A stretch of 21,491 nt of DNA from a virus (IMGVR_UViG_3300009151_000469:1-21491), one strand, 5' to 3'. Positions 1 to 21,076 are shown, numbered from the stretch's first letter. Translations and numbers: made by a program. The notes: a model not told the origin generated them from the letters alone.

Positions 1-266
1 GCTGTTACGTTTGTCCAGGACACGGTAGTTGTACCGATGGCTTTCATCTCAAGGTACCACACCGAGACGCCATCACTTGGAACACCGATAAAGGTAATTG
101 CCAAGTTTGCGACAGGGGATGCAATTCTTACTAGTCCACCGTTAGTTGGATTGATGGAGTAAGCTCCGCCAAGACCAGTGTAGCTTTGAATGCGTGAAGA
201 GTATGCAGCGCCGTTTACAGCATCGTTAGATTGCTGTAGCGTCTGTGGTACCATTGAGATTGCCAC
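1..266 (-). CDS. Putative phage structural protein, partial (3' end outside window)
   Basis: An open minus-strand frame of 88 codons starts at a GTG at 264..266 and runs off the left edge. The start is chosen because AAAGGA lies about ten bases upstream, just past the stop of the preceding 83-residue gene. An in-frame ATG at 252..254 is an alternative. The protein begins AISMVPQTLQQSNDAVNGAA and continues with alternating polar and hydrophobic residues typical of a beta-rich tail protein. No catalytic motif, signal peptide or membrane segment is visible. It is the most downstream gene seen of the minus-strand tail and adhesin run, so a virion or tail-fibre role is likely from position. The family is not recognised. 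Confidence 0.7.
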   Translation of the reverse strand, partial: MAISMVPQTLQQSNDAVNGAAYSSRIQSYTGLGGAYSINPTNGGLVRIASPVANLAITFIGVPSDGVSVWYLEMKAIGTTTVSWTNVT

Positions 267-291
267 TATTATTTATCCTTTGCTTGGATTA

Positions 292-543
292 TTATTCAGG
301 TGATGCTTCAATTGAAAGTGAAGAGTCAAACCCACTGCCATTCCACTCTGCCTTAGCAGCGTCAGAAATCTTTGGTGGATAGAACGTTCCGCCTTCATAT
401 GTCCAGCCTCGTGATGGTGTAACGACGTTTGTAGATATCTCAACCGCGTCAAAGAGCTCGGTCATGTTGCCGAGCCCTTCTTCGCTGTCGGAAACAACAA
501 CGTTAACTACATCTACACCAGAGATTAGCGCGAATTTAGCCAT
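292..543 (-). CDS. Small tail-region protein of the G-W-T-Y type, 83 aa
   Basis: The protein starts MAKFALISGVDVVNVVVSDS, and its middle carries GWTYEGGTFYPP (residues 46-57). This combination of an N-terminal beta hairpin with V-V-N-V-V-V-x-D and a later G-W-T-Y-x-G-x-x-F-x-P-P is one I associate with small proteins next to tail-fibre genes in aquatic T4-like phages. Their function is not established. A clear ribosome site (AAAGGAGAAAC) precedes the ATG, and the gene sits 28 bases after the glycine-rich adhesin. It may be an adhesin accessory, chaperone or small decoration protein; none of these can be shown here. A partial relative lies at the far right end of the window, at 21346..21491. 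Confidence 0.8.
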   Translation of the reverse strand: MAKFALISGVDVVNVVVSDSEEGLGNMTELFDAVEISTNVVTPSRGWTYEGGTFYPPKISDAAKAEWNGSGFDSSLSIEASPE

Positions 544-571
544 TTATGTTTCTCCTTTTCGATCAGTTAAC

Positions 572-3500
572 TTAAACTACAGCTTTGTCGAAGTAGCGAA
601 CGATAGCAAGACCATCGCCGCCATTTCCACCGTATGGTTGGTATGCATAGTACTGGCAGTCTGAAATATCGACGTAAACTACGTCGCCAGCATCAAAGTA
701 CAAGAACTCCCAGCAGACATCGAAGTATGCTGCGTTATCAGGAGCTGGAACTGTCTGCCAGCCTGATGGAACAGTTGAACCTGCAGTGTTACCTGAGGCT
801 GTACCTGCGATGTAGTTGTTGGTTGTAATTGCAGAGAATTGAATATCGTACGTTGGACGATCTTCGCGGATGATAACACCCTGGTAGTTCTTCCAACGAA
901 CTGTTGGACGAACGCGCTTTGGCAGACCAGAGAAGTTATTGCTTGTTACGCCTGTTGGTGCAGTCTGAAGACGAGCACCGACGATAGGGAAGATAAGTGC
1001 AGTGCGTGGAAGGATTGGGAATGCCTGCCATGCTGTTACTACCTTTGCGTTTCCAACGTCTTGAATCGTAACCTGTAGACCGTATGTACCACCGGCAATG
1101 TTAGCAGGTGATGACTGCTGAATTGCCTGAGCGTTATACAACGCTGTCCACTTGTAGGCATCTGAGGTGATCGTGTCATACGCAACGGCTGTACCAGCTG
1201 ATACGTGCTGACGAGTTGTTTGTGGAGTGTTACCGAGGTTTGCACCACCACCACCACCGCCGCCGCCGGTGTTAACAACACCGTCGATACCGCGTGAGTA
1301 ATAGTCAACTACACCAGCTGCTTGCGTTGAGTTGTAAGCAACGAGCCATGTTCCGCCGCCCTTACCGCCGCCCGCGTTTCCGCGACCAGGTACTGTTGCA
1401 AACTGCGTGGTGCTTGTCCAACCTGCGCCGCCACCGCCACCTGCTAGTGGGATACCGTATGCAGATCCGCTGTTAAGACCAGATGGGATAACACCTGGGC
1501 CACCGTCACCGGCAGCAGAAGGCATGTAAGCGTTAGTGCTCGAGCCTGTTGTAGACGTGTTCCACATTGCGTATCCACCAGCGTTTCCACGCATTGGGAA
1601 CGTCTGGAACGACGATCCAGCTGTTGAGTTCCAACCAGAGCCATATGTAAATGACGTTGTTGCGCTGTTAGTTGGCATGTACATAATTCCGTTACCGCCA
1701 ATGCCACCTGCGCCGCCACCGCCACCTGCTAGTGTAGGAAGAGTACCAAGTGTGCCTGAGGCACCAGCAGCGTGTCCGCCGTTGTTTGCACCTTCAAGGC
1801 CGTATAGCCAAGCTGACACCGAGGTGTTATAGGTTCCGCCACCGCCGCCGCCTTCAGCAGCAACTGTTGCGGACGTTACGATTGGAGACATTCCTGGCTG
1901 GCCAGCATATGTGTACGTACCATCGTTTGCACGCTTTAGAACTGTTGAAGTTGCCGCAAGTTCAAGCTGTGGATACATTAGGTAGAATTCCATCGTCGTA
2001 CCTGTTGCAGACTGTGCTGCCTGGTACGCGGTAGCGCCTAGACGCATCCACGCGGTTCCTGTTGGAGCCTGTGCGGATACACCGATACGTACCGGGTACG
2101 ATGATTGTGGCATCTGAGCCGTTGTAGATGCAACCGTTGTGATTGGAAGAACGTTGGATAGACCAAGGCTGCGACCAAGTGAGTTGTAATCCTTGTCAAA
2201 GTACTCGAGGAACGCTTGCACTGGGCGATACTGCTGTGCGGTACCACCTGCAACCGCAAAGAGAGTACCAGTGTACGTGTTTCCTGCGATAGACTTAACA
2301 AAGCGATGTCCAACCTCAAGGTCAGACCCTGCTGTTGAGTTTGTCTGCAGAACAAGAACGTTATCATAAGCGTAAAGTGGCTGCTGGTAAGCTGTAACAG
2401 ATCCACCAACCTCAAGCTGCATGTTGTCGAACCAGAACACGGTGCTTGCCTGCTGTAGAACGATCGTAGGGTAGATAAGCTGTCCCCATGATCCGTAGCC
2501 GTAAACGCCGTTTGCAGTTGACGCAGAGAACGAAGGGGTTGTGAACGTGCCTGAAATACGACGCCATCCAGTCTGACCAACAGTTTGGTTAGATCCTAGG
2601 ATTTGAGTACCTGTTGGCGTTGCAAACGTTAGAGGCACGGCTGTAATAGCAGCTGTTGTTGCCAAGCTAAGTGTTAATACGTTTCCAGAGACACCTGTAA
2701 TTAGCGCACCTGACGCCATACCTGTACCAGTTACACTCATACCAATTAGAAGCTGCGATGCGTCTGTAACTGTTACGGTTGTTGCCGTGTTTGCAGCTGT
2801 TCCGTTAACTGTTACTGATCCACCAAAGCCGACCATTGGAGTAGGCGTTATCTGACGGACGAAGAATCCGTTAGCTGTACCGGCATCAATTGATGACGTT
2901 GTACCAGTTGAGGTGTTACCTGTTGTGTACGACGTGTTTGATTGCGCCATGTAGCCACCAGACGACACCGAGGTTGAACGAAGCTGGAATAGGATCGGTG
3001 TCGATGAGGACACTGCCAAGTTAGCTGATACGTACACGGACAAGCTGTAGGTTTGACCTGGTTGATAAGGAATACCAGCAAAGCCGTTGTTTGTCGTAGA
3101 CGCTGTAACGCTAGACGTGTTGTTAAGGTTTGACCAGTTGAGCCACGTTGGGTTACCGGTTGAGATAGCTGAACCTGTTGTTGCCTGTAGAGCGTTAAGT
3201 CCGAAGGTTCCAGTGTATGAGAACGTTACAGACTGCGCTGATAGGACGTTGGTTGTAGGCGTTGATACAGTTACCTGTGTAAGGCTATCAATGCTAAGAA
3301 TGACCGCGCCTGTTCCGATACCTGAACCGATAACAAACATTCCAACCTGCAGGTTAGTTGTGTCGCTTACCGTTAGCGTTGAAGAGCTTTGAGCCGCTGT
3401 CACGGTACGAGTAAATGGTACCTGCATTTCAGCCAACTTGGTAGGAATACCGGCGTTGGTGATTGAAAGTGTTGCAGCGTTTGTTCCGTATACGCGAATG

Positions 3501-4309
3501 TAGTTTGATGACAGCGTTGTTGCATCTTCAAGCTGCGCAACCTGAGGCTGCAGCAAGTTGTTAGATAGATTTTGTGTGTTTGGCGACGATACGGAGTTAA
3601 GTCCCATAGCGTTGCTGAGATACGTACCATTAGATACGTTATTGTAGAAGATTGAGCCTTGCTTAACGTTAGCTGTACCTTGGTCAAAGCGGACAACCAC
3701 GTTTACCGCTGTTGAGGTGTTAGCTACAGAGAGAGTAACTACGTTGCCTGATACAGAAACTACCTGGGTGTTTGTTCCAAGGTTAGTACCTGATACCAAC
3801 TGACCGGCTGTGATTCCGTTTGCGTTAGGGAACACGATAATAGATGAAGCGCTAGCTGCACCTGTTGCGTAGCGGAAGATGACGTCAGCGTCCCACTGGG
3901 CAAAGGAGTAGTCAAAGTTAGAGTTGGTTAGGTAGTTTGCTATGGTAATATTACCAAATGTTGTAGTACCACCGTTACCGCCTGGAAGGGTGTTTGTGTA
4001 GTCAGACGCGGACGCGATTGCGCCTTGTCCACCTTGTCCACCTGCACCGATGTTAATCGCGTAGCTAGTACCTGGAGACACGTCAACGTTCTTGACTACA
4101 ACTGCTCCACCACCACCACCGCCACCTGCACCGATATCAGAACCGCCACCGCCACCGCCACCTGCACCGACAAGAATTACCTGTGCGCTTGTGACGCCAG
4201 TTGGTGCTGTCCATGTGCCGTTTGCTGCGAAGGTTGCCTCTTTGATTGTTACACGACTGGAGTTGTCGTTAGGAAAGACAATAAAGTCTTTACTTGAGGA
4301 GATCGCCAT
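572..4309 (-). CDS. Glycine-rich modular tail adhesin / receptor-binding protein candidate, 1245 aa
   Basis: Residues about 24-119 look like the start of a phage glycine-rich domain: F-x-A-N-G-T-W-T-A-P-T-G-V-T, then Gly runs at 50-68, then V-S-P-G-T-S-Y-A-I-N-I-G-A-G-G. Glycine-rich segments resume at 819-1026, and the usual closing strand (G-G-D-G-L-A-I-V-R-Y) ends the chain at 1230-1239. Between these parts sit non-glycine modules. About 121-207 resembles a jelly-roll opening followed by a short beta module. Further beta modules lie at 308-365 and 508-563. A carbohydrate-binding-like beta sandwich ends in W-F-D-N-M-Q-L-E (626-633), another ends in Y-P-Q-L-E-L (779-784), and a further domain fills about 1030-1222. 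Polyglycine II bundles form the tips of some phage adhesins (T-even gp38 is the known precedent), so host-surface contact is the likely role. The ribosome site GGAAGG precedes the ATG. Function is inferred from composition and context. Confidence 0.82.
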   Translation of the reverse strand: MAISSSKDFIVFPNDNSSRVTIKEATFAANGTWTAPTGVTSAQVILVGAGGGGGGGSDIGAGGGGGGGAVVVKNVDVSPGTSYAINIGAGGQGGQGAIASASDYTNTLPGGNGGTTTFGNITIANYLTNSNFDYSFAQWDADVIFRYATGAASASSIIVFPNANGITAGQLVSGTNLGTNTQVVSVSGNVVTLSVANTSTAVNVVVRFDQGTANVKQGSIFYNNVSNGTYLSNAMGLNSVSSPNTQNLSNNLLQPQVAQLEDATTLSSNYIRVYGTNAATLSITNAGIPTKLAEMQVPFTRTVTAAQSSSTLTVSDTTNLQVGMFVIGSGIGTGAVILSIDSLTQVTVSTPTTNVLSAQSVTFSYTGTFGLNALQATTGSAISTGNPTWLNWSNLNNTSSVTASTTNNGFAGIPYQPGQTYSLSVYVSANLAVSSSTPILFQLRSTSVSSGGYMAQSNTSYTTGNTSTGTTSSIDAGTANGFFVRQITPTPMVGFGGSVTVNGTAANTATTVTVTDASQLLIGMSVTGTGMASGALITGVSGNVLTLSLATTAAITAVPLTFATPTGTQILGSNQTVGQTGWRRISGTFTTPSFSASTANGVYGYGSWGQLIYPTIVLQQASTVFWFDNMQLEVGGSVTAYQQPLYAYDNVLVLQTNSTAGSDLEVGHRFVKSIAGNTYTGTLFAVAGGTAQQYRPVQAFLEYFDKDYNSLGRSLGLSNVLPITTVASTTAQMPQSSYPVRIGVSAQAPTGTAWMRLGATAYQAAQSATGTTMEFYLMYPQLELAATSTVLKRANDGTYTYAGQPGMSPIVTSATVAAEGGGGGGTYNTSVSAWLYGLEGANNGGHAAGASGTLGTLPTLAGGGGGAGGIGGNGIMYMPTNSATTSFTYGSGWNSTAGSSFQTFPMRGNAGGYAMWNTSTTGSSTNAYMPSAAGDGGPGVIPSGLNSGSAYGIPLAGGGGGAGWTSTTQFATVPGRGNAGGGKGGGTWLVAYNSTQAAGVVDYYSRGIDGVVNTGGGGGGGGANLGNTPQTTRQHVSAGTAVAYDTITSDAYKWTALYNAQAIQQSSPANIAGGTYGLQVTIQDVGNAKVVTAWQAFPILPRTALIFPIVGARLQTAPTGVTSNNFSGLPKRVRPTVRWKNYQGVIIREDRPTYDIQFSAITTNNYIAGTASGNTAGSTVPSGWQTVPAPDNAAYFDVCWEFLYFDAGDVVYVDISDCQYYAYQPYGGNGGDGLAIVRYFDKAVV
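2621..2788 (-). repeat. Short beta module copy 3 in the glycine-rich adhesin
   Basis: Residues 508-563 of the 1245-residue protein read T-V-T-V-x-D-A-S-Q-L-x-I-G-M-S-V-T-G-T-G-M-A-S-G-A, then V-S-G-N-V-L-T-L-S. Two further copies lie upstream in the same protein (3215..3388 and 3689..3847), and one lies in the separate 1205-residue protein (5665..5871). The repeat is visible in protein, not as exact DNA identity. Confidence 0.65.
3215..3388 (-). repeat. Short beta module copy 2 in the glycine-rich adhesin
   Basis: Residues 308-365 read T-L-T-V-S-D-T-T-N-L-Q-V-G-M-F-V-I-G-S-G-I-G-T-G-A, then V-T-V-S and a closing V-T-F-S-Y strand. It aligns by eye with copy 3 over most of its length. Confidence 0.65.
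3689..3847 (-). repeat. Short beta module copy 1 in the glycine-rich adhesin
   Basis: Residues 155-207 contain G-I-T-A-G-Q-L-V-S-G-T-N-L-G-T-N-T and V-S-G-N-V-V-T-L-S, closing with V-V-V-R-F. This is the most diverged copy: the usual G-M is G-Q, and the opening strand is shorter. Confidence 0.55.
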
Positions 4310-5007: not shown

Positions 5008-5050
5008 ATAACATGACTCGAAACTTTTAAGTGTGTCTTTGTCATGTTAT
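5008..5050 (-). terminator. 10-bp inverted repeat at the end of the 1205-aa gene, possible weak terminator or processing hairpin
   Basis: ATAACATGAC at 5008..5017 is matched perfectly by GTCATGTTAT at 5041..5050, with a 23-base loop. The right arm overlaps the TAA stop of the 1205-residue gene. No clear run of T follows on the minus strand, so an intrinsic terminator is doubtful. An RNA-processing site, mRNA-stabilising hairpin or protein-binding site fits equally well. Confidence 0.4.
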
Positions 5051-8000
5051 GCCTGGGCTTCTGACCATGAAATACGGGCAGAGATGTTAGATGCAACTGT
5101 TCCGATATTTGTCGCAAGAATGATAAGTACGTCTGGTCCCGCTGGGAATCCAGGAGTAGATACCGTTCCGTTGCCGCTAAGAATGGAGTTTCCAAGTTCG
5201 CGGATACCGGTTAGGTCGTATACAGATGAGTTGTACGCGTTGGCACCAGCGCCGTTTTCCGTGAAGAATGAGAACACGGAATCGCCGCCGTTTACCCAGC
5301 CACTAGGAGCTGCTGAGGTAATTGTTCCAGTTCCACCAGGAGCTGCAACGTTTAGAGACGAGTTAATCGTGATCTGACTTGCGGTAGGAACGATGGTGAT
5401 CGGTGCGTATGGAACGTTGTAACCAGTCTGCCCAGTGAAGCCAGTGACCGTGACGTACTGGCCTACAGAGAACGCGTGGTTAGAAGATGTTGTGTACGTA
5501 ATAGATGATCCGTTTGATGACGCAACTGTTGAGCTGATCGAGTAGTTAGGAACACCGCCGCCACCAATGCCGGTGTTGTCAAAGTAGAACACCTGTGCCA
5601 GTGAGTTAAGACCAGGAATATCACGACCCCAGTCATCTGGGATGCCTGAGTATCCAGCCATTGGAGTGTACGTTGCCGTTCCGCCCTGTGTAACGGTGTT
5701 AAGCGCGGCAGCGGACATCGTGATTACCGAGCCTTGAACGGCTGCAACCGTCGTGTTAGCTGCAAACGAGGATGCCATACTAGAGGTACCGGTAATTACC
5801 ATACCGGTGACGATACCCGTCATACCGCCGTTTTGTCCGATGTCATTAACGATCATCTGATTTGCACCTTGTGAGATTGACACGTTGGCACGAGTAATTG
5901 CTAGTTGATTAACTGTCCAGTTAGTATAGCCAAACTGTGCTGGGTTCATAAGAACGTCAATACGGAACGCTCCGTTGGTCTGAACACCAATTGACTTAAG
6001 TGCAAGTTGCATGCGGTTAAGAAGTTCACGCTGTCCAAAGTTACGTCCGAGAGCGTTATCAACTGATGGCGCTACGCGAAGAGCAACAAGAGGACGAGCG
6101 ATACCTGGCTGAACTGCTAGGTACTTAGTCATACCTCCTGTGAAGAGAGGCAAGAGATCAGCGTCATAGCGGCCGTCCATGATAACGGACGAGCCCCAGT
6201 GTTGAATGATTGGCGAGCAGGTGATTCCGATGGTTTGAACTGCAACCTGTGAGTCACCACCTGAGCCTGTAAACGATGAGTCGGTAACAAAGATTACCTG
6301 ATCTGTTGTTCCAGCGATTGTAAACGGACGGTCAGGATACGCGTAGGTAATTGACTGACGACGCTGAACTGTTAGAGGATATGCCTTAACAGTGTTGTTG
6401 TAGTCGCCGATCTGCGTATACTTCATGATCTCGCCGTTGACGTCATCCTTTACCCAAAGGTAACCATTTGGTGGCCAATCGTGGGTATTTTCAATGTAGA
6501 TGGTAGTGTCGTTTGGCCCAAGAGTACCACCGCGAATACCTGAGGCACCTGCAACCATTCGAGTGTTCTGAATTGGCTCGGTTGTTACCTCATAGCGAGC
6601 TGGAAGGTTACCAGACTTTTGATAGGCAAGCTGGTTGGAGTTGTTTTGCGGCCAACGGTGACAGTAGACGACCTTTCCACCCTTAGCACGCATACCGAAA
6701 CGAATTGTTCCAGCGCCATACCAGGAGTAATCGATGAAGATCATCTGCATCTTAGTAACGTCAAGGTGATAACCTGATGGACCATCTCCATCAAACTTAT
6801 CTAGGTTCCACTCGTCTTGAGCTACACGGATAATCTGGCTGAGAGTTGCGCGAACTCCGATAGTTGTCGCACCCTTATAGGCAGGTGAGATTGTCAGTGA
6901 TGTGTCAGAGTTAACGTTGATGATCTTGTAGCTCGAGCCTTTGATAACAATCATGTCGTTTGTTACTAACTGCTCGCGGAAGAGCGTTGAAACTCCCACA
7001 ACTCTGTTAGAACCAAAGGTCACGTTAAGACGACCTTGGATCAACTTCTCAGAGTGACGACGAGCAACGTACATTTCTTGTCCATCATACTCAAACCAGA
7101 ATCCGTTTTGATCGTCAAAAAGACCCGCACGAGTTGCAGCGCCATACCACGTATGCGCGTGAGCATAGATGTTTGGACCAGCTGATCTTAAGTCGTGGTA
7201 AGGAACTGTAGATGTAAGAAGTACCTGGTATTGGAAGGTGTTGCTATCAGTTACAGCTGTAACTGGCCAAAGTCCATTAAACGGATTGTAAGTTTCATTA
7301 ACCTGTGCGTTCTCTATAAGAATCTCTGCGCCAACTTGAAGGCCATGATCCTCTACGCAAACTACGGTGACCGTAGCGAGCTGACCGGAGGTACCGGTGT
7401 TAAGAGAAAGTGAGTCAATGTTATACGTTGGAGTAAACTTACAACCTGTTGAGAACTGAACTGACTTACCAGCCTGGTAACGGAAGTAACGACGTGTCTG
7501 ACGAATTGTCTGTGAACCAGGAACTGGAAGCACTGTAGCGAGAGCTACACCGGCGTCATAAGGACGATGAATGATGTATCCTTCAGACTTAACGATAATG
7601 CGTGCAGTAACTGGAACGGTAACGCTTGTCTGAACGCGGCCAAGACTAAAGATCATCTGACGAACGTTAGGGACCTTTGACACGTAGTAGTCACCGTCAA
7701 CTGAGTTTGTACCAGAGATCGAGATCGGTGTGCCTGGGAATAAACCGTGAGGGTTTGTAAATGTAATGGTGATGTTAGACGCTGGAGTTGCAGAGTCAGA
7801 CACCGCCTGGAACGTGTTCATCGTGTTCTTAGAGCCGGTGTACGCACCAAGTCCTGGGTAATCTCCGCCTGGAATATGCGAAGATGAATACGTATCTCCA
7901 GCGTAGACAGCGGTAAGGTTTGGATAGATAATTTCTCCAGCAACCTGACCCTTAGCGTAGTATCTAAACGAGTATGAGGTAGGGGCGTCGTAGACAGCAA

Positions 8001-8664
8001 ACGTACCCTCACCCTTTTGGTTAAGAGATTCTTGAACGGACACGATGTTACCAGCGACAAGTCCATGAGGAACCGTCGTTGTTATAAGCATAAGAGACTT
8101 AGGCGTTGTTCCATCACCAAAGATAGAGGAAACTTGAAGTGAGTTACCGCCACCTGGCTTAGGGAAGAACGAAGGGTAGTTTTGAGTTAGGAAAAGAGCT
8201 TCCCACTTAGATGGCTGCACTGAGTATTCAAAGTCAGTGTCCATCATTGACTGTGGAAGAGACGCGCGAAGCTTCTGCGCGCCGTCTAGAAGAGTATCCT
8301 CAAAGTCAACAACCTGCTCGTAATCGTCAACCATAACTGAGATGTAATCTGTTGCGCTCATCTGGGAACAGTTAAACTTAAACTTTACGTATGTTCCGTA
8401 CATTGTCTTCTGGAACGTTGATGGAGCAGCGCCGTCCATTGGAGATGACTTTTGGTCAATAGAGTCTAGGATGCTCGTGCTACCAAGCATCTCGTACTCT
8501 GCAAATCCTTTAGTAGAGTCAGAGAAGTTGTAGATGATGGTGTTTGTTGTTACGTTTGTAACAAGCATTAGACGCTCAGGGCGAACCCAACGTTGTTCAA
8601 TCGTAAGAGAGTTATCTGCAGGATCGAAAATATAATCCGATTCCTTAATAATGTTACGTGACAC
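5047..8664 (-). CDS. Large modular virion structural protein (tail/baseplate-associated), 1205 aa
   Basis: The N-terminal 240 residues include D-T-D-F-E-Y-S-V-Q-P-S-K-W-E (142-155), and later come G-Y-I-I-H-R-P-Y-D-A-G-V (362-373) and R-R-Y-F-R-Y-Q-A-G-K (391-400). I associate this set with very large structural proteins of aquatic T4-like phages, of uncertain place in the virion. At least four short modules share H-G-L or H-A-F followed by x-x-G-x-x-V-x-V (around 200, 306, 440 and 1063). One G-M-V-I-T-G-T module (932-1000) matches modules in the glycine-rich adhesin. The start is GTG, preceded by GGAAGGA that overlaps the end of the upstream gene. There is no signal peptide or membrane segment. 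The role is inferred from similarity and position among fibre genes. Confidence 0.8.
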   Translation of the reverse strand: MSRNIIKESDYIFDPADNSLTIEQRWVRPERLMLVTNVTTNTIIYNFSDSTKGFAEYEMLGSTSILDSIDQKSSPMDGAAPSTFQKTMYGTYVKFKFNCSQMSATDYISVMVDDYEQVVDFEDTLLDGAQKLRASLPQSMMDTDFEYSVQPSKWEALFLTQNYPSFFPKPGGGNSLQVSSIFGDGTTPKSLMLITTTVPHGLVAGNIVSVQESLNQKGEGTFAVYDAPTSYSFRYYAKGQVAGEIIYPNLTAVYAGDTYSSSHIPGGDYPGLGAYTGSKNTMNTFQAVSDSATPASNITITFTNPHGLFPGTPISISGTNSVDGDYYVSKVPNVRQMIFSLGRVQTSVTVPVTARIIVKSEGYIIHRPYDAGVALATVLPVPGSQTIRQTRRYFRYQAGKSVQFSTGCKFTPTYNIDSLSLNTGTSGQLATVTVVCVEDHGLQVGAEILIENAQVNETYNPFNGLWPVTAVTDSNTFQYQVLLTSTVPYHDLRSAGPNIYAHAHTWYGAATRAGLFDDQNGFWFEYDGQEMYVARRHSEKLIQGRLNVTFGSNRVVGVSTLFREQLVTNDMIVIKGSSYKIINVNSDTSLTISPAYKGATTIGVRATLSQIIRVAQDEWNLDKFDGDGPSGYHLDVTKMQMIFIDYSWYGAGTIRFGMRAKGGKVVYCHRWPQNNSNQLAYQKSGNLPARYEVTTEPIQNTRMVAGASGIRGGTLGPNDTTIYIENTHDWPPNGYLWVKDDVNGEIMKYTQIGDYNNTVKAYPLTVQRRQSITYAYPDRPFTIAGTTDQVIFVTDSSFTGSGGDSQVAVQTIGITCSPIIQHWGSSVIMDGRYDADLLPLFTGGMTKYLAVQPGIARPLVALRVAPSVDNALGRNFGQRELLNRMQLALKSIGVQTNGAFRIDVLMNPAQFGYTNWTVNQLAITRANVSISQGANQMIVNDIGQNGGMTGIVTGMVITGTSSMASSFAANTTVAAVQGSVITMSAAALNTVTQGGTATYTPMAGYSGIPDDWGRDIPGLNSLAQVFYFDNTGIGGGGVPNYSISSTVASSNGSSITYTTSSNHAFSVGQYVTVTGFTGQTGYNVPYAPITIVPTASQITINSSLNVAAPGGTGTITSAAPSGWVNGGDSVFSFFTENGAGANAYNSSVYDLTGIRELGNSILSGNGTVSTPGFPAGPDVLIILATNIGTVASNISARISWSEAQA
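5665..5871 (-). repeat. Short beta module in the 1205-aa protein matching those of the adhesin
   Basis: Residues 932-1000 contain G-M-V-I-T-G-T-S-S-M, then V-A-A-V-Q-G-S-V-I-T-M-S and a closing T-A-T-Y-T. The layout matches the G-M-x-V-x-G-x-G / V-x-G-x-V-x-T-L-S modules of the 1245-residue protein, although the loop between the two conserved parts is longer. Confidence 0.5.
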
Positions 8665-8676
8665 TTAGATCCTTCC

Positions 8677-9084
8677 TTACAAGAAGCTCAAAGGTGAAAC
8701 CACATTTGAGGTTAGGTTTACCAGCTGCTCGGTTGTTGTTGACTTAGGGAAAAATATACCAAGGTTTAGCAGAGCGTCCATCTTTAAGAGATTAGAAACA
8801 CCGCCGTCTCCCGCAGGACCGGTTGGTCCAATGTTGCCTTGTGGGCCTGTTGCACCGGTTGAACCAGCAGCTCCATTTGAGCCTGCAGAGCCTGCGGCGC
8901 CTGTAGAACCCGTTGGGCCTGCAGGACCAGATGAGTACGAAAGAGTTGCCCAGAAGTCATTGCCGTTACCGACCTTGAACAGTCCGGTGTCGAGCTCTAG
9001 CCCGAGCTCACCTTCAGCTAACTTTGGGTTAGCAGAAGTCCATTGCGCGGCGCTGCCGCGTCTAAATTGGACTATTGATGCCAT
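8677..9084 (-). CDS. Mtd-N-like adaptor with short collagen stalk, 135 aa
   Basis: Residues 1-48 (V-Q-F-R-R-G-S-A-A-Q-W, L-A-E-G-E-L-G-L-E-L-D-T, F-K-V-G-N-G) match the pattern of the small N-terminal domain found in many phage fibres, known from the Bordetella phage major tropism determinant. Residues 53-94 are about fourteen Gly-X-Y triplets. The last 40 residues are non-collagen, with a hydrophobic end (V-V-S-P-L-S-F-L), and could be a trimerisation tail. The start shares one base with the stop of the giant collagen gene (TAATG), with GGAGGAG just upstream. At 135 residues it is far shorter than most fibre proteins with this N-terminus. It is likely a virion attachment adaptor or short fibre that works with its neighbour; this is inferred. 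Confidence 0.85.
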   Translation of the reverse strand: MASIVQFRRGSAAQWTSANPKLAEGELGLELDTGLFKVGNGNDFWATLSYSSGPAGPTGSTGAAGSAGSNGAAGSTGATGPQGNIGPTGPAGDGGVSNLLKMDALLNLGIFFPKSTTTEQLVNLTSNVVSPLSFL

Positions 9085-12000
9085 TATCTAGTTACTCCTC
9101 CGCAGTCGATTGTTACTAAGCCGCCGTAGTTAGTAGTTGGACTGCCAGCGTCTACGTTGATCATTGTATTGCCTGGTGTACCAGCTGCACCAGGTGAACC
9201 GGTAGCACCGGTAGCACCTGTTGAGCCTTGAAGACCAGGGCTTCCCATAACCTCAACCCAGGTGGAGTTGGTGTATGTGAAGACCTGCATTGTATCGGTG
9301 TTGAACCAAAGATTTCCATTAACAGGACTAGCTGGTGGTGTTGCGCTTTGAACTGTAAACGCACCTTGTGCGCCGGTAGGACCAACAGTTCCCGTTGGAC
9401 CAGTAACTCCTTGAACACCTTGCGAGCCAGTTGGGCCAGTAGGTCCTTGAGGACCGGTATCACCGATGTCACCAGTGCGAGCAAAGGTAATAATTACGTC
9501 TTCAGTGTCGGTAAACGTTCCACTACCGGATACATACTGTGTAACTACCTTCAGGTAGTTTGAGCCTGAAGTAAGCGCTCCAGTAATTGCAAATAAAGCA
9601 AACTTAGATGCGTCAATTTTATCTGTAATTCTAAAGTGGCCCTTGATGGCACTCGTTGAATCATCGATAGTTTGTAGGAAGTTATTAACGTTTATGCTGT
9701 TAATATCACTTGTGCTAATATAAAGTCGAGTTACTGACGCAGGTGTTGCGTTGTTAAACTTTAACTTTCCAGACGTTGGATCTGAGTCTGTAGTGTTCGT
9801 GCTAAATAAGTAGTCAAACGCGGCTCCACCAAAGTTACCAGTTTCGCCCTTTGCACCGGTTGGACCTACAGCGCCTGTCGCACCAGTGATACCCGTAGGT
9901 CCCATTGGACCTGTAAGACCAATGACACCTTGGTTACCTTGTGCACCGGTTGGTCCTGTTGAGCCTGTAGGACCGGTGTTTCCTGTTGGACCGGTTACAC
10001 CTTGAATTCCTTGTGTACCGGTAGGGCCAGTAACTCCCTGTGGGCCTTGTGGACCGGTTGGTCCGACGATACCTTGAATACCTTGAACACCGGTAGGACC
10101 AGTAGGACCAGTGTATCCTTGAATGCCCTGTGAGCCCGTAGCACCTGTTGCACCCGTAGCACCAATCGCACCTGTTGGTCCGGTGATGCTATTTCCTTGT
10201 GGACCTTGCGCACCTGTTGGACCAGTGTTACCAAGTAAGCCTTGAGGACCTGTAGGTCCAAGATTTCCTGTAGGACCAGTTGCACCTGATGGACCGGTTG
10301 TTCCCGTAGGGCCTTGCTGTCCTGTAGGTCCCTGGATACCAGTTGGGCCTTGAATGCTTCCAACGTTTACCCATGAATAAGACGTACCAGACCAGACGTA
10401 GAGATCTCCAACAACTAAGTAACCGTCACCGGCTGCACCAGTTGGGTGTGCAGCAAGAAGTGCTGCGAACGTTGCGTACTGTCCCTTGATGGTAATACTT
10501 GTACCAGCAGCACCAGTCGAACCAGTTGGGCCTGTTGAACCGACGCCTGTTGGGCCGGTTGGACCAGGTACAGTTGACTGCGCGCCTGTCGCACCTGTTG
10601 GGCCGGTAGGTCCCGCGATACCTTGTGAACCTTGAACACCTTGTGAGCCGGTAGCGCCGGTAGCACCAGTTACGCCGATTGAACCTGTAGGTCCAAGGTT
10701 TCCTTGTGGACCAATAGGTCCCTGTGCACCTGTCGCACCGGTTGGTCCGACGTTTCCTTGTGGACCTGTGTAGCCGGTTGGGCCTGTGACACCTTGGATA
10801 CCTTGGTAGCCTTGAACACCTGTAGGACCCTGTGGACCTGTAGCACCAACTGCACCTGTAGGACCTGTAACCATTGACGCTGCACCGGTAGCACCAATGC
10901 TACCTGTAGGACCTTGAGGTCCAGTTGCGCCTGTTGGGAGAACAACGCGGTCAACGTAGTACCAGCCTGAGCTGTTGTTCCAAATCATTGCAGCAGGTGG
11001 ATACGCTGTGCCGTCTACATAAACAAGAGCCCAGGCATTTGAGTAGTCAGCGCCAGGCCAAGGATAGTTAGTTCTAAAATCATTTAAGTTTGTCCATGAA
11101 CCAAGGAACGTAGCTGGAAGGCCTCTTGAACCTGTAGCACCAGTTGGACCAGTGTCACCGACGGTACCAACTGCACCATCTAGGTTTACTGTCCAATATG
11201 CATACGTGCCAGAACCAGTTTTACGAAGAACGTTAACTGTAAGAACACCGGTGCCTGCGTCGTATGTTACGACGTCAGCAATCATGTAATTTGATGAGTT
11301 ATATGCAACAATAACTGTCTGTGCAGTTGAGTAAGCAAGACCTGTCTGAATTGTTAGATAGATTTGACCAGTTGAAACCATTGACAACGTTGTTGTCGAT
11401 GTTGCCTTATATCTATCACCGATTGGACCAGTACTTCCAGTCGCACCTGTAGGTCCCTGCGAACCTGTAGGTCCTGCAACAGTACTCGCCGCACCTGTAG
11501 CACCTGTTGGTCCTTGACTTCCTGTTGCACCAGTTGCACCAGCAGTTCCTTGAGGACCTTGCGCGCCTGTCGCGCCCGTTGGGCCTGTTACGCCTTGTGG
11601 GCCAGTTACACCTTGTAAGCCTTGGCTTCCTTGTGGACCGGTTGATCCCTGTGAGCCAGTCGCACCTGTTGCGCCCGTCGGGCCAGATACTCCTTGAATG
11701 CCTTGTGGACCAGTCGCGCCCGTTGGGCCAACGGAACCTGTAGGTCCCTGTGAGCCGGTAGCGCCTGTCGCGCCAGTCGCACCTGTTGCGCCTGTTGCGC
11801 CAGCACCCGTTGCTCCAGTCGAGCCCGTAGGTCCTTGGATGTTTCCAACGCTAATCCACGCGGACGTGTTAACTGACCAAACGTAAAGAACACCGCTTAC
11901 TAAGTAGCCGTCACCTGCGCTACCAGTTGGGTGCGCTGTTTGAAGATCAGAGAATAAAGTGTAGCTTCCACGAATTGTTACGCCGGTTCCTTGAGCACCA

Positions 12001-13718
12001 GTTGCGCCTGTTGCACCTGTTGGACCAGTAACTCCTTGAACACCTTGCGAGCCGGTAGCACCAGTTAAACCTGTAGGACCAGTTACACCTTGGATACCTT
12101 GTAAGCCGGTAGCGCCTGTCGCACCAACAGCACCTGTTGCACCGACAGAGCCAGTCGCACCGGTGATGCCTGTCGCACCTTGCGCACCGGTTGGGCCGGT
12201 GATTGATGCGCCGGTTGGTCCTTGTGCACCCGTCGCGCCGGTGACACCTTGTAAACCTTGATAACCTGTAGGGCCAGTTGCACCAGGCGAACCTTGAATG
12301 CCTTGAGTTCCTGTTGCGCCTGTTGCACCAGTAGGTCCAGTTACTGTGCTAGCAGCGCCAGTACTTCCAGTTGCACCTGTTGGTCCGACTGAACCAGTCG
12401 GTCCAACAACAGTACTCGCTGCTCCTGTTGCACCGGTTGGTCCTTGCGAACCTGTTGGGCCAACGGAACCTGTAGGTCCTGTGACTGTTGAGGCAGCACC
12501 TGTTGCACCTGTTGCACCTGTTGGACCGACGCTACCCGTTGGCCCAGCGACTGTGCTTGCGGCACCTGTAGGTCCAGTGCTTCCTGTTGCGCCGGTTGGA
12601 CCAGTCGCACCTGCGTACCCTTGAATACCTTGTACACCTTGTGTACCTTGAGAACCTTGAGGTCCTTGTGCGCCAGTCGCACCAACTAATCCTTGTGGAC
12701 CTTGAACGCCTTGTAGACCTTGTTGTCCTTGTGAACCTGTTGCACCCGTTGGACCCGTCGAGCCAGTTGCGCCAATCGCGCCTGTCGGTCCTGTAATAGA
12801 TGCGCCTGTAGGTCCTTGTGAACCCGTAGGTCCTTGGATGTTTCCAACGTCAAGCCAGTTGCCTGTTGTGCTAGACCAAACATAAAGTTCACCAGCGACT
12901 AGGTAGCCATCTCCGTTGCTGCCTGTTGGATGTGCAGCGATTAAAGCCGAGAGAGTATTGTATGAACCAAGAATCTTTACTGACGTTCCTGCAGGTCCTG
13001 TTGGTCCTGTTGCGCCAGCTCCCGTAGCACCTGTTGCACCTGTAGGTCCTTGCGAACCTGTAGGTCCTGTGACTGTTGATGCTGCGCCCGTTGCACCGGT
13101 CGCACCTGTTGGACCGGAGACACCTTGCGGACCAGTAATACCTTGAACGCCTTGCGCTCCTTGAGGTCCTACGTTTCCTTGCGGTCCAGTTGGTCCTGCA
13201 ATGCCTGTTGGACCAGTAGGTCCTGCAATACTAGATGCAGCGCCTGTTGGGCCGGTTGGTCCGCCGGCAGGGCCTGTAGGTCCAGACGCACCACGTGGTC
13301 CAGTTGCGCCAATGTCACCCTTAGGGCCAATAGGTCCGCGAGCCGTGCTAGCTGAAAGACTGATTCCGTTGTATGGAGAGTCAATGGCAAGAGTCTTTGA
13401 AAGATCGACTGCACTGCCATCACCGTAAGTTAATTGAATAAAGAATTTTTCTGGGCGAACACCGTAAAGGCGAACGTCTACTTCATACGCCCAGTTAAGT
13501 GGTTGAAGATTTGCATTGTCAGTACAAGGTAGAACTACGCTAAATGCACCTTGAGAATCTAAGGTGGCAACTACCGTAGTCTCGATGATAATCGTTCCTA
13601 CGTTGTCAATAACTGGAGACGTAGGAGTAAATGTTACTCTGCCCTTGGCAGGAACTCCCTTTGAGGTAACGTAACGTCCGTATACTCTACGAGTATTGAC
13701 ATTGTTAGGTAAAGTCAC
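9084..13718 (-). CDS. Giant collagen-like minor tail protein / fibre, 1544 aa
   Basis: Residues 1-124 form a beta domain ([20 protein letters not shown], then [12 protein letters not shown] and N-W-A-Y-E-V) of the type that opens many mycobacteriophage minor tail proteins. From 127 to about 1513 the chain is mostly Gly-X-Y, by eye roughly 300 triplets, rich in G-P-T, G-A-T and G-x-Q. Thr is common in Y and Pro is rare there, as in bacterial collagens. Non-collagen beads interrupt it: three near-identical cassettes plus a diverged fourth (separate entries), and domains at about 766-852, 1294-1415 and 1452-1492. The last contains [10 protein letters not shown], a common phage-fibre motif. The protein ends with a short [11 protein letters not shown] segment. 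The start is GTG after CGGAG. A trimeric host-contact fibre is likely. Thr glycosylation, as in Bacillus BclA, is conceivable. Confidence 0.9.
10353..10502 (-). repeat. Collagen-interrupting cassette, copy 3
   Basis: Residues 1073-1122 contain [26 protein letters not shown] and W-V-N-V-G-S-I-Q, followed at once by GPTG. It aligns along its length with copies 1 and 2. Two aromatic strands and a G-D-G-Y turn suggest a small beta fold, perhaps sugar-binding or trimer-nucleating. Confidence 0.85.
10929..11120 (-). repeat. Diverged fourth cassette in the collagen protein
   Basis: Residues 867-930 run F-L-G-S-W-T-N-L, then [24 protein letters not shown] and L-P-T-G. The order of strands, the Trp positions and the closing P-T-G match the three conserved cassettes, with an insertion in the middle. 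Homology is judged by eye and is less certain than for the others. Confidence 0.5.
11838..11987 (-). repeat. Collagen-interrupting cassette, copy 2
   Basis: Residues 578-627 contain [26 protein letters not shown] and W-I-S-V-G-N-I-Q, followed by GPTG. Confidence 0.85.
12834..12983 (-). repeat. Collagen-interrupting cassette, copy 1
   Basis: Residues 246-295 contain [26 protein letters not shown] and W-L-D-V-G-N-I-Q, followed by GPTG. It is the copy closest to the N-terminal domain. Confidence 0.85.
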
Positions 13719-20387: not shown

Positions 20388-20424
20388 GGGCTGGGTGGAA
20401 ACACCTAGCCCCTTTCTTATTTAT
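20385..20424 (+). terminator. Strong intrinsic terminator of the replication operon
   Basis: A 13-base-pair stem (AAGGGGCTGGGTG with CACCTAGCCCCTT, one G-T pair) carries a GAAA loop and is followed by TCTTATTTAT. The stem lies 63 bases past the last plus-strand stop and three bases from the stop of the convergent recombinase gene, so it probably separates the two units. Confidence 0.88.
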
Positions 20425-21076
20425 CCTTAAGAAAGTTGAGTGTCTTACGAATAGTAGATCCGTGCCACTCGCCGCCTAATGCAGTTGGGACGTTATCAGC
20501 GTTTAGCGCTGCTGCTATCGCGTGGTATGACATGCCCTTCTCGCGTTCCGTTCTTATACGCTCAAGCGTCTCCTGAGACACTTTTGTCTTAGGTCCAAGG
20601 TCTACACCCCAAACTTTTCCGGTGTCCCTACGATACTTGTGGACCTCCCTTTGACGCGACGCAATAACTGATCTTTCCATCTCGGCAAGAGCTGACATGA
20701 TTGTCACTACGAAGCGCCCTTGATAAGAAGATGTATCAAGATTTAAGTCTAACAGTACAAGTCTCCAACCTTTGTTGTTAGCTCTGTCGATGATACTTAG
20801 GAAGTCCTTTGTAGATCTAGCTAAACGATCTACGCGAGTAACGAACAACGCGGAGGCTTCACCGGACTCAAGACGTTCAAGTGATGACCTAAGAGCTGGT
20901 CGACCTTTAATAGACTTACCCGAGCGACCCTCCTCTCGGACTAGTTCCATATCAGTAAACCCTGCCAACGTAGCCGCGTTGCGCAGTTCTTTCTCCTGAG
21001 CATCTAGTGAAATACCATCAGTAACCTGCATCTGAGTAGACACTCGAGCGTAGAGAAGAGCTAATCCTTCAGCCAT
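20417..21076 (-). CDS. Small serine recombinase (resolvase/invertase family), 219 aa
   Basis: The catalytic domain is complete: Y-A-R-V-S-T-Q (9-15, nucleophile Ser13), R-E-E-G-R-S-G-K (47-54), V-T-R-V-D-R-L-A-R-S (79-88), and F-V-V-T-I-M-S-A-L-A-E-M-E-R (122-135) on the long helix. The C-terminal part has V-S-Q-E-T-L-E-R-I-R, then G-M-S-Y-H-A-I-A-A-A-L-N and G-G-E-W-H-G-S-T-I-R, a winged-helix-like DNA binder. At 219 residues it is far shorter than phage serine integrases (about 450 to 550) and lacks a zinc ribbon. Resolution or inversion is therefore more likely than integration. The ribosome site AGGAG lies seven bases before the ATG. The leader has three TGTACA sites. Confidence 0.9.
   Translation of the reverse strand: MAEGLALLYARVSTQMQVTDGISLDAQEKELRNAATLAGFTDMELVREEGRSGKSIKGRPALRSSLERLESGEASALFVTRVDRLARSTKDFLSIIDRANNKGWRLVLLDLNLDTSSYQGRFVVTIMSALAEMERSVIASRQREVHKYRRDTGKVWGVDLGPKTKVSQETLERIRTEREKGMSYHAIAAALNADNVPTALGGEWHGSTIRKTLNFLKDK

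Follow-up and report, generated by a model that had tools for sequence, protein, structure and literature searches.

Whether the glycine-rich product of a long gene in a metagenomic virus contig is a single domain into which other modules were inserted, or a row of separate domains joined by glycine spacers, is the question raised by this locus (IMGVR_UViG_3300009151_000469; the whole stretch of 21,491 nucleotides analyzed is referred to as the window). The gene occupies a single frame on the minus strand, an orientation that the original prediction did not state; host binding is its likely function, and the product is referred to below as the adhesin. The translated chain contains the glycine-rich stretches quoted in that prediction (residues 24–119 and 819–1026), the quoted last strand (GGDGLAIVRY, residues 1230–1239) and both of the sandwich endings, WFDNMQLE at approximately 626–633 and YPQLEL at approximately 779–784. 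Scans of IMG/VR revealed some thirty homologues from other contigs with the same layout and intact frames, which already refute an assembly or gene-fusion artefact of a single contig; this explanation, which the origin of the window as a 21 kb metagenomic contig might have favored, was assigned a negligible probability. The full-length homologues (1104–1250 aa, as well as L139–L143 with 1288–1293 aa as stop-to-stop frames) all began with MAIS..KD.IVFPNDNSGR and kept both inserts. The conserved leader (residues 1–23) possibly has a role in attachment to the virion. Searches of GenBank phages (tblastn, blastn) and of GTDB genomes revealed no relative of the adhesin. The features of the locus are given in Table 1.

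Table 1. Features of the putative adhesin gene and of the ORF downstream of it, with coordinates in the window
Feature	Residues	Position	Strand	Basis
Whole gene	1–1245	572..4309	-	1245 aa plus stop; homologues 1104–1250 aa, intact frames
Conserved leader MAISSSKDFIVFPNDNSSRVTIK	1–23	4241..4309	-	Most alignment columns >90% conserved (25 homologues)
Glycine-rich domain, first part	24–120	3950..4240	-	Strands and first two glycine hairpins; PF21722 profile 6–89
Insert 1 (~690 aa)	121–811	1877..3949	-	AlphaFold2 prediction
Outer CBM-like sandwich A, first piece	121–148	3866..3949	-	CBM22 1h6x match; boundaries approximate
Small repeat module 1 (VTGTG type), inside A	149–209	3683..3865	-	Profile, 68.0 bits; six-strand pattern
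Outer sandwich A, second piece/linker	210–248	3566..3682	-	AlphaFold2 and structure match; boundaries approximate
Inner CBM4-like sandwich B, ends in VFWFDNMQLEVG	249–645	2375..3565	-	1gui and 4gwm matches; CBM_4_9, 23.5 bits
Small repeat module 2, inside B	301–368	3206..3409	-	Profile match
Small repeat module 3, inside B	502–566	2612..2806	-	Profile match
Outer sandwich A, last piece, ends in MYPQLEL	646–791	1937..2374	-	AlphaFold2 and structure match
Glycine-rich domain, middle part	812–1026	1232..1876	-	PF21722 aligned end to end in relatives once the inserts are removed; low AlphaFold2 confidence
Insert 2, CBM16/22/4-like jelly roll	1027–1225	635..1231	-	Structure match of L002 model
Glycine-rich domain, last strand GGNGGDGLAIVRYF	1226–1245	575..634	-	PF21722 gain in L002 and hhalign join
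83-aa ORF downstream of adhesin		292..543	-	phrog_14370; E = 0.009 (weak) in window, 6 × 10−7 in L002

In the intact chain, Pfam recognizes residues 31–123 only as the Gly_rich_2 family (PF21722; profile 6–89 of 226, E = 4 × 10−10), and annotation based on Pfam thus covers only about 90 of the 1245 residues of the adhesin, which should serve as a warning. According to the sequence comparisons, residues 24–120, 812–1026 and 1226–1240 may be read as one discontinuous domain of this family. The PF21722 score of each of the nine chains examined with and without the inserts rose by 8–31 bits on their removal: in the window, from 40.4 (above the curated cut-off of 24.3 bits) to 58.6 bits, and in the relatives, from 55.6 to 77.6 (L002), 53.9 to 75.4 (L077), 41.1 to 71.6 (L015), 43.1 to 72.4 (L017), 50.3 to 70.7 (L005), 45.8 to 67.6 (L028), 54.6 to 68.9 (L062) and 61.1 to 69.4 bits (L069). 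These scores support the earlier claim of a single glycine-rich domain opened at two points. The excised chains of L002, L062, L077, L069 and L151 were aligned with PF21722 end to end (profile 6/7–225 of 226; 2–225 for L151), and the excised window chain was aligned in two stretches, not one. Such end-to-end alignment in five chains argues against the alternative that a row of beta sandwiches is separated by glycine-rich stretches serving as mutually independent spacers, either flexible or of low complexity.

It should be noted that the controls bear on this alternative in both directions. In L002, the N part alone scored 61.1 bits and the N and middle parts without the last strand 56.9 bits; the last 15 residues added 20.7 bits, and only when joined to the middle part, which would not be expected of unrelated spacers. 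When the middle part of L002 was altered, the score was 49–55 bits after shuffling, 61.9 bits after rotation and 70.4 bits after reversal (77.6 bits unaltered). Composition therefore contributes to the core score, since the reversed middle part still gives 70.4 bits, although in two stretches. When the separate pieces were compared with our own local HMM of 39 ordinary, uninterrupted domains, the first part was clearly recognized (64.5 bits), and the middle part was not distinguished from shuffled sequences of the same composition (188 of 500 reached its score). Thus, much of the middle score is explained by composition, as the spacer explanation would have it, and it is in the order of the middle part that the one-domain reading is weakest. 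Meanwhile, the family-wide identity of the middle part averages 61% with a minimum of 44%, the highest floor except for the two end pieces of the core, and this conservation is unlike the behavior of a spacer. With these points taken together, the spacer explanation was judged improbable. Matches of phmmer to an scFv linker and to protocadherin were rejected as chance resemblance of polyglycine.

The original prediction had also proposed comparison with insert-free relatives, and a search with the N part revealed 39 distinct ordinary domains, uninterrupted and approximately 140–300 aa long, in other viral contigs. None of the relatives found lacked insert 1 while retaining a middle part of the adhesin type. 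The first part of the adhesin domain matched the ordinary domains in hhalign with a score of 137.8 (E = 1.8 × 10−23). The ordinary domains mostly end with (A/V)NTGGGGGGG, a short tip and GGSGIVI.Y; at the corresponding place, the window has VNTGGGGGGGG, approximately 200 aa, and then GGNGGDGLAIVRY. In an hhalign scan of all joins, the last strand was singled out (37.0 versus a background of 23.1 ± 2.6), and in the few rows with higher scores, the first part was aligned with the profile region to which it belongs. The same scan did not single out the join at insert 1. The join at insert 2 is clear from the comparison of domain ends.

A profile of eight diverse ordinary domains matched gp24 of cyanophage Pam3 end to end (7yfw, 7ypx; profile 4–192 versus chain 85–274, E = 5 × 10−7), which by profile would place the two in the same glycine-rich family; the window chain alone had no Pam3 match in the sequence search, and the link runs via the ordinary domains. 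In the Pam3 tail fiber, the strands of a TNF-like sandwich continue into six loops rich in glycine, and the receptor site is proposed to lie at the tips of these loops (PMC9608196). By homology with this fold, insert 2 would be located at the tip of the last Pam3-type loop, and insert 1 would follow the strand that leads back from the second loop and precede the next run of glycines, probably on the base side of the core. The original prediction had placed the inserts in loops, which agrees with the position expected for insert 2 but not with that expected for insert 1, between a beta strand and a glycine run. In the AlphaFold2 prediction for relative L002 (residues 24–1223), the inserts were predicted well, and the glycine middle had pLDDT < 50. 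This low value counts in favor of the spacer explanation, and packing of the core as a single domain consequently rests on sequence and homology, not on the model. The Pam3 domain differs in being uninterrupted, about 190 residues long and free of CBM inserts, and its fiber possesses a helical shaft at the N terminus and a chaperone of its own; a helical trimerization shaft of the Pam3 type is absent from the adhesin, in which only 23 residues precede the glycine-rich domain.

AlphaFold2 prediction for window residues 118–816 (pLDDT 81.5, pTM 0.79) showed that insert 1 is, in the model, a CBM22-like sandwich (A) enclosing a second, CBM4-like sandwich (B), with three modules of approximately 60 residues inside. 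The claim that the approximately 700-residue insert resembles carbohydrate-binding beta sandwiches is thereby retained at the level of fold, whereas the modules are nested rather than placed in a row, with one sandwich inside the other and three small repeats within. The outer sandwich, assembled from both ends of the insert (window model 4..674), was aligned with CBM22 1h6x over 154 of 159 residues (Z = 12.9); its exact split is inferred, because match ranges give the first and last aligned residues only. The inner sandwich matched CBM4 1gui (Z = 10.8; L002 model 228..609) and 4gwm (promeprin; window model 132..528). With the modules excised, sandwich B reached 23.5 bits (E = 8 × 10−5) for Pfam CBM_4_9 (PF02018), below the cut-off of 25.9; intact insert 1 had no CBM_4_9 match in Pfam, and none of the Pfam CBM families passed its cut-off on the adhesin. 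When insert 1 was compared with PDB sequences, no match was found, and a BFVD search yielded many multi-domain phage proteins, none of which was aligned as a whole.

Modules 1–3 were each predicted to have six strands with the same spacing, and modules 2 and 3 matched each other in hhalign with E = 4.5 × 10−17. Module 2 was absent in the subgroup of L106, L148 and L151 and, as judged by eye, in L150. A further VTGTG-type module was found near the C-terminal end of a neighboring virion structural protein in four relatives (L006, L015, L028 and L106; the window counterpart is the protein encoded at 5047–8664), and the module therefore seems to occur in more than one tail gene.

Insert 2 consists of approximately 200 aa where the last glycine hairpin ordinarily has only a short tip; it was aligned with CBM16 2zey over 141 of 145 residues (L002 model 999..1178; Z = 13.0), and the next-ranked matches of this model were CBM22, CBM4 and CBM-like domains of phage tailspikes. 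At the fold level, insert 2 is thus modeled as a CBM-type beta sandwich, and the assignment of both inserts to this class, as originally predicted, is borne out by structure matches of the predicted models. The inserts also matched the CBM-like domains of phage tailspikes K2-2 and CBA120 TSP4 (Z = 11.6–12.8).

The architecture could be correct and the sandwiches nevertheless be structural decoration or protein binders serving virion stability or fiber attachment, not sugar binders. CBM-like folds are common in virions, fold likeness shows no function, and sandwiches other than CBMs (meprin, ephrin receptor, cyclases) also matched the inserts with Z > 10. The top matches, however, were mostly glycan-binding modules and phage tailspikes acting on glycans, and for the CBM-bearing "evolved Dits" of siphophages infecting Gram-positive bacteria, binding to host cells has been demonstrated (PMC7291167). 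A role other than sugar binding is accordingly regarded as the less likely one, although it deserves more weight than the spacer explanation.

These proteins also provide the closest precedent for the design, which the original prediction had called unusual. In evolved Dits, one or two CBMs are located in loops of another tail domain, and the CBM of BppA is similar to 1GUI, a CBM4 structure matched by sandwich B of the adhesin as well. Grafting of CBMs into tail-protein loops is therefore not unusual in itself, and it is the depth of nesting that is: CBM-in-CBM nesting is not described in the passages of PMC7291167 consulted. The carrier also differs, being the galectin domain of Dit in one case and the glycine-rich PF21722 domain in the other, and profile searches of the adhesin gave no match to the Dit family (N-terminal belt plus galectin domain). 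Salmonella phage S16 gp38 (6F45; PMC6851490) has a similar glycine-rich lattice, with hypervariable tips as the receptor site, but is much smaller and has no inserts; its helical attachment domain Gp38_N (PF21721) reached 13–14 bits in the adhesin against a cut-off of 25, and in the wrong place. Each part is thus already known, and as far as the literature searched shows, the glycine-rich tip carrier and the depth of nesting, both kept in the group, are new.

The adhesin gene is preceded by a cassette encoding a virion structural protein of 1205 aa (5047–8664; phrog_5838, E = 4 × 10−199) and proteins of 112 and 101 aa, and the order in L002 is identical. The product of the 83-aa ORF downstream, whose small family (phrog_14370) adjoins the adhesin in L002 as well, is possibly a chaperone or accessory protein. 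Over 65% of its length, the primase shared 80% identity with its counterpart in Actinomycetia phage DSL-LC01 (OQ999401); Microbacterium phages came next. DSL-LC01 was assembled from lake water with a predicted actinobacterial host (PMC10611076), and the host of the window phage would likewise be a freshwater actinobacterium. DSL-LC01 has a similar gene order, but no homologue of the adhesin was found there, and its 2853-aa structural protein has its own ALK-like glycine-rich stretch. This protein (L125:28221–36782), annotated as "ALK tyrosine kinase receptor", is the apparent counterpart of the 1205-aa virion protein of the window; the stretch lies near residues 190–455, and the 1205-aa protein is without one. 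The window also encodes a 1544-aa protein consisting mostly of collagen-like G-x-y repeats interrupted by small repeated inserts (9084–13718), a 135-aa protein in which collagen repeats come after a Major tropism determinant N-terminal domain (8677–9084; PF18454) and, near the contig end, a member of the serine recombinase/DNA invertase family (20417–21076; phrog_125, phrog_95), either an integrase or a tail-gene invertase. Rfam and tRNA searches found none.

The gene probably encodes a phage tail-tip or tail-fiber adhesin with a Pam3-gp24-type core and CBM-type inserts, serving multivalent sugar-directed adsorption. Its base would be one domain of a TNF-like sandwich with glycine-rich loops, built from the three core segments; the last glycine hairpin would carry the CBM-type sandwich of insert 2 instead of its distal tip, and insert 1 would add a CBM-like sandwich around a second one, both further opened by the small repeated module. 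The glycine core may act as a stiff hub presenting several putative sugar-binding surfaces to the envelope of a freshwater actinobacterium, and multivalent adsorption is therefore proposed. The analysis itself establishes which domains are present, their order, their conservation and the fold class of the inserts; the packing of the core as a unit, the places of the inserts on the solved fold, sugar binding, the part played in adsorption and the host are inferred. The more specific proposal of a four-level nest kept across the phage group (glycine lattice, CBM-like sandwich, CBM-like sandwich, small modules) together with a CBM-like domain at the lattice tip, in which the core is a rigid hub with at least three putative glycan-binding surfaces, was held to be evenly balanced between right and wrong. 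If true, the Pam3-type glycine-rich receptor-binding domain, a related form of which occurs in T-even phages, would accommodate large inserted domains at the tip of a loop as well as at a turn of the base; specificity would be gained by domain insertion and not solely by changes in hypervariable tips; and the principle of evolved Dits would extend to another carrier fold. In phages of uncultured actinobacteria from fresh water, the adhesin would be a candidate for the receptor-binding protein.
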